DNA of 64,000 bases, taken from Sulfurimonas sp. HSL1-2. Its GTDB lineage: Bacteria > Campylobacterota > Campylobacteria > Campylobacterales > Sulfurimonadaceae. A program made the position numbers and the translations under genes. Each line of letters starts with the position of its first letter. The first letter of the stretch is position 1. The stretch spans positions 310,001 through 374,000 of the forward strand of contig NZ_CP147914.1 in NCBI RefSeq assembly GCF_039645565.1. Direction: 5' to 3'. Positions 55,391 to 62,343 of the stretch are shown in pieces. A model generated the notes under the pieces. It ran no database searches and was not told the origin of the DNA. It saw nothing but the letters and a program-made list of their open reading frames with translations.

Positions 55391-56662
55391 CTAGCTTTGC
55401 GTGCGTAGCTTGCCCAGGATCAGCTCAAAGTGCTGGATCAGGTCGTAATACTCCCGGCGGTAGGAGAGCGGCACGTCGACTTTCTGGATCTTCTGCAGCG
55501 CCTGTTCAAGCTTATTGACCGCCTCCCGCCGCTGCGCCGCGTCATAGCTCCCCATCTCATCCTCGATGTCATTGAGCGTTCTGTACCAGCGGTAGATCTT
55601 GGAGCGGCTGCGCCACGATACGAGCGGCAGGAAGAGTTTCACCAGCGGGATCATCAGGGCGATGACCGGGATGAAGAGCAGCATCAGGCGTTTGATGATC
55701 GAAGCGATCCAGAAGGGGAAGAGGCTCTCCAGCCAGCTTTCGCCGTCGCGCAGGTAGACCTCCGCATCGGCATTGATGGGGAACTCCAGGCGCGAGGTAC
55801 CGGGGAACTCCCCCTCTTTGCGGAAGACACCCGCCCCGCCGTGGACCTCTTTCGCTGCGCGCAGGATGAGCCGGATGAGATCGGGGTGGAGACCCTCGCG
55901 GCTCACGAGCGTCGCCGTCGCGGCAATGAGGTGTTTGGTCGTTGCGGGGAGATTGTGTTCGAGGTCCATGACCCCCTCATAGAGCGTGACGGCATTGAGA
56001 AACGGGTAGCGGACGGTATAGGCGTGCGTCCGGGTGAAGTCGAGCAGTTTGATCTGCGGGTCGAGCAGCAGCGTCTTTGTCAGCGGGGCGAAGGCGCCGA
56101 TGATGCTAAAAAGCGCATCGGCGTCGCCGTCGAACAGTGCCTGCGCTCCCGCTTCGCTTCCGAGGGTCAGAAAAGAGCTGTTTTCGGGGGTGACGCCGTT
56201 CGCTTCGAGCAGCGTGATCGCAAGGGCTTTCGTTCCGCTCCCCTCGGCACCGACGGCGATACGTTTCCCCTTAAGTTCGCTGAGGTTGTGCAGTTCCATC
56301 CCTGCGGCGGAGTAGTAGACCCAGATCGGTTCGTTGTAGAGGCTGGCGAGGGAGGTGAAGGGTTCGGTTTTGAACGCATCCGTACTCCCGCTCTGCACGA
56401 ATGCGACGTCGGCCTTGTGCTCCTTGAGCAGTCCGAGCGCTTCCACCGAACCGTGGGTGGGGATGATCTCGACCGTGACATGCTGTTTGGCGAGCATGGC
56501 CTTGTAGCGCAGCGCGCTCTGATAGTAGATGCCGTTTTTCTCGCCGGTGGCGATGGTGAGGCGGTCGGGGGCCAGCGGCGGGAGGAAACGGCTGCCGATA
56601 TAGAGCAGCCCCAGGAAGAGGGCGAGGAGGAGCAGGATGATCTTACAGGCATGGCACTTCAT
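55391..56662 (-). CDS. TAXI-type solute-binding protein with membrane anchors
   Basis: A 423-residue protein. An N-terminal helix (about 7-27) is followed by a TAXI/NMT1-like binding domain: LTIATGEKNGIYYQSALRYKAML, EIIPTHGSVEALGLL, VAFVQSGSTDAF and GKRIAVGAEGSGTKALAITLL. A second hydrophobic region at about 335-360 follows, with a cytosolic coiled tail (RWYRTLNDIEDEMGSYDAAQRREAVNKL). TRAP-TAXI binding proteins normally lack this tail and pair with a permease, which is absent here. ATG at 56662 is used. It may be a tethered sensor. Confidence 0.85.
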   Translation of the reverse strand: MKCHACKIILLLLALFLGLLYIGSRFLPPLAPDRLTIATGEKNGIYYQSALRYKAMLAKQHVTVEIIPTHGSVEALGLLKEHKADVAFVQSGSTDAFKTEPFTSLASLYNEPIWVYYSAAGMELHNLSELKGKRIAVGAEGSGTKALAITLLEANGVTPENSSFLTLGSEAGAQALFDGDADALFSIIGAFAPLTKTLLLDPQIKLLDFTRTHAYTVRYPFLNAVTLYEGVMDLEHNLPATTKHLIAATATLVSREGLHPDLIRLILRAAKEVHGGAGVFRKEGEFPGTSRLEFPINADAEVYLRDGESWLESLFPFWIASIIKRLMLLFIPVIALMIPLVKLFLPLVSWRSRSKIYRWYRTLNDIEDEMGSYDAAQRREAVNKLEQALQKIQKVDVPLSYRREYYDLIQHFELILGKLRTQS

Positions 56663-56667
56663 GACGC

Positions 56668-56673
56668 TATAAT
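56668..56673 (+). promoter_or_regulatory. -10 box of the barrel protein gene
   Basis: TATAAT in the short gap between the divergent TAXI and barrel genes, 23 bases before the latter's start. Confidence 0.5.
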
Positions 56674-56696
56674 AACGAAAAAAGCGAAGCGGAACG

Positions 56697-57629
56697 ATGA
56701 CGCGAATTGCAGTGGCCCTCCTTTTGATGTCTTCAATCCTGTCGGCGGTGGATACGGCCGAAGAGGCAGCGAAAAAAGCGTACCTCGCCAACATCAATGC
56801 GCTGATGGTCTTTACGACCAAGGACGGGCTCAACTCCGGGACCTATGATTTCACCCGGGCCAATACGAGCATGTACATCATCCACCTGCCGTTTCGCTAC
56901 CAGTTCGATCCGTTCGCCCCGGACCTGAATGCCTTCGTGATCGGCGGGGTGGGCTACAGCGAAACCAGGCTGACCAACGACGTCAACACATCGACACCGC
57001 TCTCGGGTGATATCGCATTGAGTGCGACAAACATGCTGCGCACCTACACGGGCGGGATCGGTGGGGGGCTGCGCTACCGGCCGGGGCTCGGGTTCGAACT
57101 GCTCGGCGGGCTCGAAGCGATCTATTCAAGGGTCGGCATCGCTGCACGGGACAACAACGGTGCCGGGGAGACCGTCGGCGATTTTTTCGAAGAGAGCTAC
57201 AACGCGAACATCTCCTACCGCGTCTTTATGGCGCTGGAGTACCGGCAGACATGGCATCGCTACAAACCGTACGCGACATTGACCTACGACCTCTATGAGA
57301 CGAAAAGCGCCATCAGCACCAAGCAGCTGAGCAAGTTCACAACCCAGACAAGCGTTACCTCCTTCTCCATCGGCGGAGAAACGGCGCCACTGGCCGACTA
57401 CCACGGGATGTACCTGACGCTGGAGGGGTACCTGCGCGGCAGTTACCTGGGCGGCGACATTACAAGCGTGACCCATTTCGACGGGTACGGTACGCTCGGG
57501 GGTGTCGCCTACTGGTACGTCGGCGAAGCGATGAAATATATCGAGCGCTTCTTTCTCGAAGTGAGCACGATCCAGGCCGACGGGCTGCGGGGGTATAACA
57601 TCGGGCTGGGATTCACGCTGGATTATTAG
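56697..57629 (+). CDS. outer-membrane beta-barrel protein
   Basis: A 310-residue protein with a signal peptide (cleavage near SILSAVD). Amphipathic strands run through the whole chain (for example YIIHLPFRYQF, GGLRYRPGLGFELLGGLEA, VFMALEYRQTW) and the C-terminus is LGFTLDY with terminal aromatic Tyr, typical of BAM-inserted barrels. I see no enzymatic motif. It starts 34 bp from the divergent TAXI gene and ends 1 bp before the converging peptidase-barrel gene. Its function is unknown. Confidence 0.8.
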   Translation: MTRIAVALLLMSSILSAVDTAEEAAKKAYLANINALMVFTTKDGLNSGTYDFTRANTSMYIIHLPFRYQFDPFAPDLNAFVIGGVGYSETRLTNDVNTSTPLSGDIALSATNMLRTYTGGIGGGLRYRPGLGFELLGGLEAIYSRVGIAARDNNGAGETVGDFFEESYNANISYRVFMALEYRQTWHRYKPYATLTYDLYETKSAISTKQLSKFTTQTSVTSFSIGGETAPLADYHGMYLTLEGYLRGSYLGGDITSVTHFDGYGTLGGVAYWYVGEAMKYIERFFLEVSTIQADGLRGYNIGLGFTLDY

Positions 57630-57630
57630 G

Positions 57631-60327
57631 TCAGTAGGCGATGCCCAGGCCGAAGCGGATCGTGTGGCGGTCCGAGGCCAGCGGTGAGTCGCTGTAGTAG
57701 TAATCCACGGTGATGGGCAGCGGGAGTTTGTTGAACCAGAAAGTGTCGAGCGTCAACCCTGCCGAGGCCTCGGACGTATAGAGATGCGAGGCCGAGGGGT
57801 TGAAGGGTTCGAAGTCGTAGTAGGCGTAACCGGCCCGCAGGGCTTCGCGGCGGAGCGAAACGGGGAAGGTGAAGAAGTAGGCGGAGAGGTTGAACACCTT
57901 GCGCAGCTCTGCATCGGCTTTGAGCGCGCTTTTGGCATAGGTCGTATCGCGCAGGGTCGGCATGACAACCGTCGAGGGGTCGTTCTCTTTGAGCTTGTCG
58001 GCGATGCCCGTTGCGAGTTTGACGCCGCGGGCCTCCAGGCCGCTGTCGGCACTGCTTTGCGAATACTGTCCGCCGAGGGCAAGATAGAATTCGTGGCTCA
58101 GGTCGTGCTCCAGCGCCGCCTCTCCACCCCAGGCGACATCCCCCCGGTCGAAGGCACTATAGGGGGTCAGAGCGTAAAAGGCGTTGCGGTACATGCTGAC
58201 ACCGTACTGCTCGCTGCGTGCCAGGGGAAGCGCGAGGGAGATCGGGGTCCGGGTGTCCGCCTCGTAATCCTGGTAGTAGGTGCCACGCAGCGCCCCGTAT
58301 TCGTACCCGCGCCGCCAGAAGGGGAGTTCCGCTTCCGCCGCGAAGCCGAAATGGCGGGGAGCGGGTTCGGTGGCATTGCGCTCGGGGGAATCGATGACCC
58401 CGTAGGCGGTCACGGCGAACTGCAGAAGGTACTGGCTGTTGGCGTAGCGCATCCCGCCGAGGGTATAGGCGTCGACGTTCCGGGTCACGAAGGCTGAGAG
58501 GGCGTTGCGCGTCAGCGGGTCGGCGAAGTTGAGCGAGAGGGTATAGAGCAGCCCGGCGTCGCTGTCGCTGCCCAGGGCGACGTCCGTACCGCTGTAGTGC
58601 AGCTCAAGCGGCGAATGGTAGGGGTGCCCGAGGTCAATGGCCTCCGCCGAGGCATTCGTTTCCGGAGGGGTCTCCCCCGTCTTCTCGAAGAAGAGGGTGA
58701 CTTCATAGGGCGCTTCGTCGAACGTTTCGAGGGGTATCTTTTGATAGGTGTAGGCATCCGCGCCCATCACGGCGGCCAGGGCATGGGTGTCGTCGATCAG
58801 GCGTGCCTCGAAGATCGTGTCGGCGGGGTGCGCCCGGCTGACCCGTCCGTGGTCATAGCAAAAAAGGCCGGAACCGTGCGGCGAATTGGCGATGAAGTAG
58901 ATGCGGCCCCGGCTGTCGACGCCGCTGACGTTGCCATAGTACCCTCGGAGGGAGAAGAGCGGGGTTTTGTTTTTGTAGAGTGTGCGCGTTTTACCTTCAC
59001 CCTGCACGAAGTAGTAGAGGTTGTCCTCCCCGTCGATAAAGACCGAGGAGTTGGTACGGGCGTAGAAAGTGTCGCCGACATAGAGCTGCGGCTGGTCGAA
59101 GGAGGCGGGGACGTTGAAGTAGACGGGGGTGCCGTCGCGCAGGTACCCTTCGATGACGCGGCCTGCCGTACCGTCTATGAGGTGGGCGCCTTCCGTATAG
59201 AGACCGGCTTCGATGCGCAGCGGCGAGGTGTAGGCGCTGCTCTGGGTTGCATAGCGTCCTTCAGGGCTCCTGACGACCTTCCCGGTGCGGTAGCTGCCGC
59301 TTTCCCGGGTGAGCCTGCCGCTTTTCTTGTCGTAGACGATCAGCTCGGGAAAGCTTCTGCCGGTTGCGTTGACGGTGAAGTAGACGGCGTCGTCGTCGCT
59401 GTTTATCGGCGTGTAGAACTGCGTTTCGGCCAGAGGGGTGCCTTCGACGTCTTTCATTTCACGTGCTTCTGCCGCCATCTCGTCGGCCCAGGCACGAAGG
59501 GCCGTTTCAAAATCGTAGCCGATAGTGCGCCTGGTCGTGCTATTGGTGAAGAAGGGCCAGAACCAGTCATAGGAGTGCTCTTTCCAGTAGGCATTGACAT
59601 CGGCCATTCCGTATGTAAGGGCCAGGTCGTACTGGTAAAAGCCCCCCAGGGTGTAGAAGTGTGAGCCGTAGAGGAAGTCGTAATGGGCATTATAGACCCG
59701 CTCGGGGGTGAGGAGGCCTGCTTTCGCCTGCTGGAGGGTCGCGGCTTTGAAGCGGCCGCTGTAGAGGCGCCCCCCGTTGCCGTGCCACGACTCGTTCAGG
59801 ACGGCATTCCCTTCGAGCAGGAAGCTGCTCTCGACGATATTGGGCAGGGTGAACCAGGGCAGCAGCACGAAGCCGTTGCCGAACACGGTGTGCAGTGCGC
59901 CGGAGACGGGGTTGTCTTTGGCGTTCATCTGGTAGTTATGGGCGGTTTCGTGGTACAGCAGGGTGTTCAGCCAGGAGGTCGAACTGAAGTAGTCGATCAT
60001 CAGCGCCCCGCCGCCGTAGTTGATTTGCCGGTTGTTGGGATAGGGGGTCGAGAAACCGTTGGCGATCTGGTTGTGGCTGGAGAGCAGGCCGACGTAGAGC
60101 GTCTCGTCCATGCTATAGCCGTAGAGCTTGTCATATTGCGGCAGCATCGCGTTTTCGACCGCGGCCGCTTCACGGGCGACGGGGAGGTTCCCTTCCGTAT
60201 AGATCAGCTCGCAGTCGCCGAGTTCGGCCGTGAAATAGGGCGCGTCGCAGGGGACGGTACTGCTTTGCAGGAGCGCCGCGTGCAGGCCAAGGGTGGGGAG
60301 TAGCAGGAGGGATGCCAATCGGGTCAT
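57631..60327 (-). CDS. secreted metallopeptidase / beta-propeller / outer-membrane barrel protein
   Basis: An 898-residue exported protein (signal peptide to about residue 18, mature part with a C27/C39 pair). Residues 60-310 carry LLYHETAHNYQ (HExxH, 126-130) and LLEGNAVLNE (Glu172, Glu179 as candidate third ligand), as in gluzincin metallopeptidases. Residues 310-600 show repeated YFxVNATG / LYYFVQGEGK / IYFIANSPHG units like a beta-propeller. Residues 600-898 have amphipathic strands and end IRFGLGIAY, as in an outer-membrane barrel. I know no characterised family with this order. The substrate and orientation are unknown. Confidence 0.7.
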   Translation of the reverse strand: MTRLASLLLLPTLGLHAALLQSSTVPCDAPYFTAELGDCELIYTEGNLPVAREAAAVENAMLPQYDKLYGYSMDETLYVGLLSSHNQIANGFSTPYPNNRQINYGGGALMIDYFSSTSWLNTLLYHETAHNYQMNAKDNPVSGALHTVFGNGFVLLPWFTLPNIVESSFLLEGNAVLNESWHGNGGRLYSGRFKAATLQQAKAGLLTPERVYNAHYDFLYGSHFYTLGGFYQYDLALTYGMADVNAYWKEHSYDWFWPFFTNSTTRRTIGYDFETALRAWADEMAAEAREMKDVEGTPLAETQFYTPINSDDDAVYFTVNATGRSFPELIVYDKKSGRLTRESGSYRTGKVVRSPEGRYATQSSAYTSPLRIEAGLYTEGAHLIDGTAGRVIEGYLRDGTPVYFNVPASFDQPQLYVGDTFYARTNSSVFIDGEDNLYYFVQGEGKTRTLYKNKTPLFSLRGYYGNVSGVDSRGRIYFIANSPHGSGLFCYDHGRVSRAHPADTIFEARLIDDTHALAAVMGADAYTYQKIPLETFDEAPYEVTLFFEKTGETPPETNASAEAIDLGHPYHSPLELHYSGTDVALGSDSDAGLLYTLSLNFADPLTRNALSAFVTRNVDAYTLGGMRYANSQYLLQFAVTAYGVIDSPERNATEPAPRHFGFAAEAELPFWRRGYEYGALRGTYYQDYEADTRTPISLALPLARSEQYGVSMYRNAFYALTPYSAFDRGDVAWGGEAALEHDLSHEFYLALGGQYSQSSADSGLEARGVKLATGIADKLKENDPSTVVMPTLRDTTYAKSALKADAELRKVFNLSAYFFTFPVSLRREALRAGYAYYDFEPFNPSASHLYTSEASAGLTLDTFWFNKLPLPITVDYYYSDSPLASDRHTIRFGLGIAY

Positions 60328-60416: not shown

Positions 60417-61187
60417 ATGAAAGATTCCTCAACCTACCAAAACAAGAAGCGTTTTTTCGAAAGCATGATCACCCTGTACGGGCGCAATGCTGTCGAGGAG
60501 GTCCTGGACGACCCGACGGTCGAGATCCATGCCCTCCACCTGGCCGAGTCGAACAAGCAAGAGGGGGTGATCGAGCGCATCACCGCCAAAGCAGAGGCAC
60601 GGGGCGTGGCGATCAGGTACCATGCCAAAGCGGCGCTGTCGCGTATCTCCCGGAATGCCAAACAGGACCAGGGAGTCGCCCTCGACATCATCGCGCCGAC
60701 CTACCGTAGTGCCCAGACGCTGCTGGAGACACCGGTGGCCAAGGGCCGGCTGCTGGCACTTGACGGCATCCACAACCCCCAGAACCTCGGGATGATCATC
60801 CGTTCGGCGGCGGCGGGGAACATCGACGGCATCCTCCTGCCCAAGCAGGGCAGCGCCAAACTCTCCCCACTGGTCATGAAGGCGAGCGCGGGGACGCTCT
60901 TCAAGCTGCCGGTCTACTACTGCGAGGCGCTCCCGGAGATCCTGGAGGCGCTGCAAACGCAGGGGTGGAGCATTTTCGGCCTCTCCTCCCATGCCGATGC
61001 AACGCTCCACACGCTCGCCGTTCCGGCACGGACGGTTTTCGTATTGGGCAATGAGAGCGAGGGGGTGAGCGACGCGGTGGCGGCACGCTGCAACGCGCAG
61101 GTCGCCATCCCGATGCAGCGGGGGGTTGAGTCGCTCAACGTTGCCGTCACGGCGGCGCTGCTGGCCTTTCTGCCGGCCGGGGAGTAA
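60417..61187 (+). CDS. rlmB: RlmB-type SPOUT rRNA 2'-O-methyltransferase
   Basis: A 256-residue TrmH-family enzyme. The N-terminal substrate domain contains ITLYGRNAVEEVL. The SPOUT knot has motif 1 LDGIHNPQNLGMIIRSAAA, motif 2 FVLGNESEGVSDAV and motif 3 IPMQRGVESLNVAVTAALL. It most likely methylates a guanosine ribose in 23S rRNA; another tRNA/rRNA target cannot be excluded. ATG at 60417 is chosen because the earlier in-frame ATG (60399) lies upstream of the -10 box. Followed 4 bp later by pldA. Confidence 0.92.
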   Translation: MKDSSTYQNKKRFFESMITLYGRNAVEEVLDDPTVEIHALHLAESNKQEGVIERITAKAEARGVAIRYHAKAALSRISRNAKQDQGVALDIIAPTYRSAQTLLETPVAKGRLLALDGIHNPQNLGMIIRSAAAGNIDGILLPKQGSAKLSPLVMKASAGTLFKLPVYYCEALPEILEALQTQGWSIFGLSSHADATLHTLAVPARTVFVLGNESEGVSDAVAARCNAQVAIPMQRGVESLNVAVTAALLAFLPAGE

Positions 61188-61191
61188 TGGC

Positions 61192-62343
61192 ATGAGACGG
61201 GTTGTGCTGTGGATGTTCCTGCTCTGCCTGGGGGCGATGGCGGAGAGCCGGTTCGAGACGGGGATGGAACATTACCGCCAGGGAGACTACCCCGCGGCGT
61301 TTGCGATCTTTACGGCCGCGTACGAGGCGACGGAGGATGAGGACGCGGCCTATATGCTCGCCAGGATGTATGAAAAAGGCGAGGGGGTCGAAGCCGACCG
61401 GGCCGAGGCCGCCAGGTGGTACCGCCGTTCGGCGCGGCGCTACTTCGAGGCGGCGGCGGACTCCTCCCTGCACCGGGAGAACAAGCGGCTGCTTTCGACC
61501 TACCGCGAACTCGACCCCGTCGAGGACAATGAGACCGCCGAGACGATCCGCAAAAGCATCGTTTCCGATTTCGGTCTGAAGACCTTTCACGAGAACTACC
61601 TGCTCCCCTTCGGCTACCGTGAAGGCGTGTATGACAGCTATGTGCCCTCGGACCATTACAAGAACATTGAATCGGAACTGCAGCTGAGTTTCCGCCTCGA
61701 TTTCCTCCCCAATCTCTTCGGCCTGAACGAGACCTATTCGGCGGCCTATACCCAGCGCTCCTTCTGGCAGGTGTACGCGGGCTCTTCGCCCTTCCGGGAG
61801 ACGAACTACCAGCCCGAAGTCTTCGTTACCTTCCCGACGGCGTCGCACAAAGTGCCGATCAAATCGGTGGCCGTCGGTTTTGCCCACCAGTCCAACGGTC
61901 AGGGGAATATCACCGAGCAGGATTTCGGCGATATCAATGTCAGCGATCCCGCAGCCATAGCGCCTTATCTGCGCAACCGGTCGCGCTCGTGGAACTACGC
62001 CTGGACGGAGGCTATCTTGCAGACGGGAAGCCTCTTTACGGAGCTGAAGCTCTGGTACCGTTTCAAAGAGAGCGAAGAGGATGATAACCCGGATCTGACC
62101 GACTACCTTGGGTATGGGTCGCTGCGGTTTATTCTGCCGTACGGCAAGAGTATGACGAGCCTGCTGCTGCGGCAGAACTTTGTGACGGGCAAGGGGGCGC
62201 AGCAGCTGATCTGGACCTATCCGTTCTCACACCGCGAGAATGTCTTCTGGTGCCTGAAGGCCTTCACCGGTTACGGCGAGAGCCTTATCGACTATAACAA
62301 CTACGTGACGAAATTTTCGATCGGGTTCAGTTTTTCGCGCTAG
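61192..62343 (+). CDS. pldA: outer-membrane phospholipase A with N-terminal Sel1 repeat
   Basis: A 383-residue protein. After a signal peptide (to about 18), residues 20-88 form Sel1/TPR-like helices (AAYMLARMYEKGEGVEADRAEAARWYRRSA). From about 130 a 12-strand barrel follows. The OMPLA active site is VAVGFAHQSNG with His232 and Ser234; the third residue is probably Asn268 in SRSWNYAW, farther away than in E. coli because of an insert. It ends in FSFSR. OMPLA hydrolyses phospholipids in the outer leaflet on membrane stress. Start has GGGGAG upstream. Confidence 0.9.
   Translation: MRRVVLWMFLLCLGAMAESRFETGMEHYRQGDYPAAFAIFTAAYEATEDEDAAYMLARMYEKGEGVEADRAEAARWYRRSARRYFEAAADSSLHRENKRLLSTYRELDPVEDNETAETIRKSIVSDFGLKTFHENYLLPFGYREGVYDSYVPSDHYKNIESELQLSFRLDFLPNLFGLNETYSAAYTQRSFWQVYAGSSPFRETNYQPEVFVTFPTASHKVPIKSVAVGFAHQSNGQGNITEQDFGDINVSDPAAIAPYLRNRSRSWNYAWTEAILQTGSLFTELKLWYRFKESEEDDNPDLTDYLGYGSLRFILPYGKSMTSLLLRQNFVTGKGAQQLIWTYPFSHRENVFWCLKAFTGYGESLIDYNNYVTKFSIGFSFSR

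Follow-up and report, generated by a model that had tools for sequence, protein, structure and literature searches.

Propeller-Omp85 fusions were described in 2014 by Heinz and Lithgow as WD40-Omp85, one of ten Omp85 subfamilies, and were interpreted as a BamA-BamB-like fusion [PMC4104836]. The main text of that paper does not contain the word 'peptidase' and is silent on any HExxH domain at the N-terminus. Our literature search found no functional study of WD40-Omp85, and only one of the papers covered uses this term. Section 10 of the same paper sets out a 'Metallo' or 'Omp85-metalloprotease' subfamily, defined by PF00149 [PMC4104836]. This family is named Metallophos in Pfam, and the 'protease' label in that section, together with the inferences drawn from it, appears to be a misnomer. 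A third related system is PlpD, a patatin-like Omp85 protein whose enzyme domain was long thought to be exported and stays in the periplasm [PMC11116518]. All the Omp85 proteins studied before PlpD function in assembly or translocation [PMC11116518].

Here we describe a protein of Sulfurimonas sp. HSL1-2 in which a gluzincin-like peptidase domain, a propeller-like middle and an Omp85-type barrel are joined in one chain. In the original prediction, made from the DNA letters, no described family like this was known. This has to be divided: propeller-Omp85 fusions were described in 2014 [PMC4104836], while no description of the peptidase domain, or of a peptidase-propeller-barrel chain, was found in the literature searched.

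Results

The window, that is, the whole stretch of DNA analysed, comprises 64,000 nucleotides (NZ_CP147914.1, positions 310,001 to 374,000). The gene lies at 57631..60327 on the minus strand, as do all of its features given below, starts with ATG and encodes 898 amino acids; its coordinates and length, the HExxH motif with a downstream Glu and the terminal Tyr are all as originally predicted. It is present in a single copy in the genome (one 2.52-Mb contig). Of 60 near relatives, 27 carry homologues, as do 21 of the 397 Campylobacterota genomes sampled, so the distribution in Campylobacterota is patchy; most of the relatives that have a name are Sulfurimonadaceae, Sulfuricurvum or other Campylobacterota MAGs. 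Compared with three congeners, the gene as a whole has a dN/dS ratio of 0.12-0.14 and its three domains have ratios of 0.10-0.13 each, indicating purifying selection. Given the homologues in relatives and the low dN/dS, this ORF is a real gene and not a chance ORF. In the draft genome of one congener (G003, contig C81; L025, L028-L030) the gene copy is interrupted by TGA stops and shifts of frame, which reflects either decay or an assembly error. No relative was found in the viral contigs and plasmids searched.

Sequence searches of Pfam, NCBIfam and PDB, using the protein or its family profile, returned no real match; weak single matches, such as Dda helicase (E 0.03), were set aside as noise. 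Read directly, the N-terminus is hydrophobic, as it also is in homologues, and ends in an A-x-A-like site ('GLHA/AL'), so that residues 1-17 (MTRLASLLLLPTLGLHA; 60277..60327) read as a Sec signal peptide. At the other end, the C-terminus has alternating residues (...HTIRFGLGIAY), the last being Tyr. The structure of the whole protein was modelled with AF2 on 11 sequences (pLDDT 73, pTM 0.67).

The putative peptidase domain covers about residues 24-296 (59440..60258) and is helical in the whole-protein model. Its HExxH motif, H126-E127-T-A-H130 (59938..59952), is followed 42 residues later by E172 (59812..59814), the presumed third zinc ligand, in the context 'LLEGNAVLNES'. Together they present the ligand pattern of clan MA(E), HExxH plus a downstream Glu. 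In the homologue alignment of 27 sequences, 26 rows cover the zinc-site positions, and H126, E127, H130 and E172 are invariant in all 26, down to about 26% identity; the loss of HExxH in orthologues that could have spoken against the prediction was not seen. Q133, G173, E179, G186 and R187 are likewise found in every covering row. Invariant zinc-site residues would be needless in a dead enzyme. Y225, 53 residues past E172, is nearly invariant; we speculate that it could be a catalytic Tyr as in gluzincin-type enzymes.

When this domain was modelled alone (AF2 on no more than 11 sequences, pLDDT 73, pTM 0.77), the 50 matches listed by Foldseek were M1-family structures (aminopeptidases, LTA4 hydrolase), and those listed by VIA were M1-like folds and the M30 lugdulysin, with Z of 10-11.6, a range (10-12) which in helical domains can arise from common arrangements. 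The predicted fold is that of a gluzincin; in both the whole-protein and the domain model, confidence is low for the stretch that surrounds the active site (about residues 66-162). The domain is similar to M1 aminopeptidases and M30 lugdulysin of clan MA(E) in its modelled fold and in HExxH plus Glu. It differs from them in having no sequence-level Pfam or PDB match, and the GxMEN exopeptidase/substrate-binding motif of M1 aminopeptidases is absent from the 898-aa sequence.

The middle of the chain, residues 297-532 (58732..59439), has about 20 predicted strands in the whole-protein model. A propeller-like structure is suggested by these strands and by the TolB-like propeller that distant relatives have in the corresponding position (see below). 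The sequence is too diverged to be detected by the PD40 and TolB models, and direct hhalign comparison with TolB was not significant (3.6%).

The barrel occupies residues 577-898 (57634..58599). In the AF2 model, 16 barrel strands were found between residues 577 and 894, counting strands interrupted by short gaps as one. The C-terminal barrel of the original prediction is thus recovered, with no sign of an unclosed barrel. Foldseek matched the barrel model to Omp85 barrels, and all 50 of the VIA-align matches listed are Omp85 proteins (Z 15.2-18.9). FhaC ranks first (Z 18.9; 281 residues, 4.3 A), and the other matches include BamA (up to Z 18.6), CdiB (17.7), TamA (17.1) and Sam50 (16.4). Strands 11 and 12 are joined, following the strand order of the model, by a long loop (759-799) containing R767-G768 (58024..58029). 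This loop presumably corresponds to Omp85 loop 6, which normally carries the motif [VIL]RG[YF]. In the 27-sequence alignment R767 is kept in 20 and G768 in 22 covering rows, and the motif of this family is RG[VI]KL, RG being followed by V or I and not by Y or F. The model and its matches identify the predicted barrel as a 16-stranded barrel of the Omp85 fold. PF01103 does not match the protein at E <= 1 and matches only one other locus in the genome. Direct hhalign comparison of the barrel with BamA was also not significant (1.4%), and no sequence-level membership is claimed from the direct comparisons with BamA and TolB.

The homologue profile extends to Gammaproteobacteria, where close full-length copies occur in the order of Alcanivorax, and further to distant proteins of about 930-1040 residues. 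Twenty-four of the latter were collected and aligned. In this distant family HExxH is found in all 22 covering rows and the matching Glu (E166) is invariant. The middle is a TolB-like propeller (PDB TolB, E 1.3e-21), with PD40 in 17 of the 24 proteins. PF01103 (Omp85) gives weak matches in five of them, and the loop-6 RG[YF] motif (Omp85 LRGY) is present in nearly all rows. Pfam scans of either family revealed no POTRA family; in the 898-aa protein and its family they revealed no patatin domain either. In hhalign, the 27-sequence alignment and that of the distant family match along 824 columns, which start close to the N-terminus and run as far as the final residue (99.9%, E 4e-37), whereas controls with an unrelated outer-membrane protein family and with mismatched domains gave 0-4.3%. 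Taken alone, the peptidase domain matches the distant family with E 8e-35, and the barrel matches its barrels weakly (45.6%, E 2e-4, 314 columns); the propeller alone is not significant. These alignments show homology of the 898-aa protein to propeller-Omp85 proteins over its whole chain. Its propeller and barrel are assigned from the models together with this end-to-end alignment. The original claim of three parts in one chain is supported.

Among 398 sampled Pseudomonadota, roughly 17 have full-length or near-full-length relatives of the distant family. The majority of the remaining matches there are frames of 430-490 residues limited to the propeller, presumably TolB itself. A maximum-likelihood tree puts the copies from the order of Alcanivorax at two strongly supported positions within Campylobacterota, consistent with transfer between phyla. 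One of these copies (L069, in G461) groups with sequences from Campylobacterota and away from the remaining gammaproteobacterial ones; this placement could reflect either a separate transfer or contamination of that draft assembly.

The gene is tail-to-tail with another gene for a barrel protein, as predicted: a 310-aa predicted outer-membrane protein (56697-57629, plus strand) without any Pfam or significant NCBIfam match. The two genes adjoin each other only inside the genus, so the arrangement carries no functional weight, and the 310-aa protein was rejected as a partner. Beyond close relatives, none of the other neighbouring genes is found again: the flanks change from genus to genus and are common only within the genus or between the closest pairs. 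Elsewhere in the window, the gene at 61126-62343 (plus strand) encodes an outer-membrane phospholipase A1 (PF02253, E 8e-67) that carries an N-terminally fused Sel1/TPR-like stretch, and the one at 55391-56758 (minus strand) encodes an NMT1/TAXI-like solute-binding protein (PF16868) whose C-terminal hydrophobic stretch is followed by an extra region.

Discussion

The 898-aa protein is a divergent relative of WD40-Omp85. As described, that subfamily has an N-terminal propeller, closest to TolB, ahead of an Omp85-type barrel, with no POTRA found, and a patchy spread attributed to horizontal transfer [PMC4104836]. The 898-aa protein shares the Omp85-type barrel, the lack of any POTRA in the scans and the patchy spread, and its middle is propeller-like. 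They differ in that neither the barrel nor the propeller of the 898-aa protein is close enough in sequence to be picked up by the PF01103, PD40 and TolB models, and in its loop-6 motif, which is RG[VI]KL rather than [VIL]RG[YF]. Because PF01103 does not match and the propeller has no sequence match to TolB, we regard the protein as an Omp85-like relative and not as a plain member. The distant gammaproteobacterial proteins do fit the definition of WD40-Omp85, and we infer from this definition that they are the same as those in the published list [PMC4104836].

Other Omp85 proteins offer partial parallels. The 'Metallo' subfamily, as defined in section 10, also has an enzyme-like domain N-terminal to the Omp85 barrel. 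There this domain is PF00149, in contrast to the HExxH domain of the 898-aa protein. We take PF00149 to be the calcineurin-type phosphoesterase and not a HExxH peptidase. In PlpD an enzyme domain is fused N-terminally to a 16-stranded Omp85 barrel [PMC11116518], as it appears to be here. However, PlpD has a patatin-type domain and one POTRA, whereas the 898-aa protein has a gluzincin-like domain and a propeller, with no POTRA found.

The Omp85 type of the barrel was not recognised in the original prediction, and it bears on topology. The prediction placed the peptidase and propeller either at the cell surface or in the periplasm. The periplasm is now favoured, given the 16-stranded Omp85 barrel and the topology of PlpD [PMC11116518], and surface display, demoted on the same topology, is kept only as the weaker reading. 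We consider it on balance probable that the protein is a putative zinc peptidase anchored in the outer membrane by an Omp85-type barrel, facing the periplasm and acting on envelope proteins. The chain would be exported by Sec, as the signal peptide suggests, and BAM would fold the barrel into the outer membrane via its aromatic C-terminal strand. As the barrel has 16 strands, the N-terminus should be periplasmic; both barrel ends would then lie in the periplasm, as Omp85 topology and PlpD suggest, and the propeller and peptidase would hang there. The propeller may provide a platform for docking or gating, as the propellers of TolB and BamB do, and envelope proteins brought to the gluzincin domain may be cleaved by it. 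The most plausible substrates would be misfolded or stalled outer-membrane proteins or lipoproteins, in the way that BepA acts on LptD. BepA is a soluble M48 periplasmic protease with TPR repeats that works at BAM. The likeness to BepA concerns the proposed working place and the type of substrate, by analogy only; unlike BepA, the 898-aa protein is fused to a barrel, and no homology between them was seen. A substrate among unfolded outer-membrane proteins is likewise suggested by analogy only, and no conserved neighbour backs a role in quality control.

Several other readings deserve consideration. That the zinc ligands and the catalytic Glu never vary in the rows covering them, in either of two divergent families, weighs against a BamA-BamB-like insertase or translocase in which the propeller and peptidase fold are substrate-binding scaffolds and proteolysis is secondary or absent. 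So does the absence of any POTRA family from the Pfam scans, and the patchiness of the gene (21/397 Campylobacterota genomes) indicates that it is not a core assembly factor. Such a reading would agree with the activities of all Omp85 proteins studied before PlpD, which assemble or translocate [PMC11116518], and with the view of WD40-Omp85 as a BamA-BamB fusion put forward by Heinz and Lithgow [PMC4104836]; we nevertheless think it rather unlikely. Alternatively, the barrel might thread the peptidase and propeller of the same protein out to the cell surface, in the manner of a two-partner system combined in one chain and following the old model of PlpD. The first-ranked barrel match, FhaC (Z 18.9), is indeed a protein exporter, but BamA is within 1 Z unit of it. 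Moreover, the enzyme domain of PlpD stays periplasmic, and by the argument made for PlpD a folded propeller and helical peptidase, together more than 500 residues, would need to be unfolded to fit through a narrow barrel, with no ATP to drive the passage [PMC11116518]. Surface export by this route seems quite improbable to us.

If the protein is a periplasmic peptidase at the outer membrane, it might also mature or shed a specific envelope or surface substrate instead of serving quality control. The patchy spread and the transfer between phyla look more accessory than housekeeping, which would suit such a role. On the other hand, no candidate substrate is linked to the gene, the flanking genes being different between genera, and we give this variant as little credence as export to the surface.

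Conclusions

The interest of these observations lies less in a single gene than in a testable enzymatic activity for the WD40-Omp85 group: the invariant gluzincin zinc site gives this group, together with its diverged Campylobacterota branch, an activity that can be tested directly. Tentatively, and with clearly less confidence than in the periplasmic peptidase itself, we raise the possibility that WD40-Omp85 proteins as a group are overlooked gluzincin proteases anchored in the outer membrane, which would receive substrate through or beside the Omp85 barrel with the propeller as a gate. If true, a protease, an adaptor and a membrane insertase or translocase would be united in one WD40-Omp85 chain. 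The invariant zinc site also suggests that Omp85 barrels have served more than once, with a patatin and here with a putative peptidase, as an anchor holding an enzyme beneath the outer membrane.
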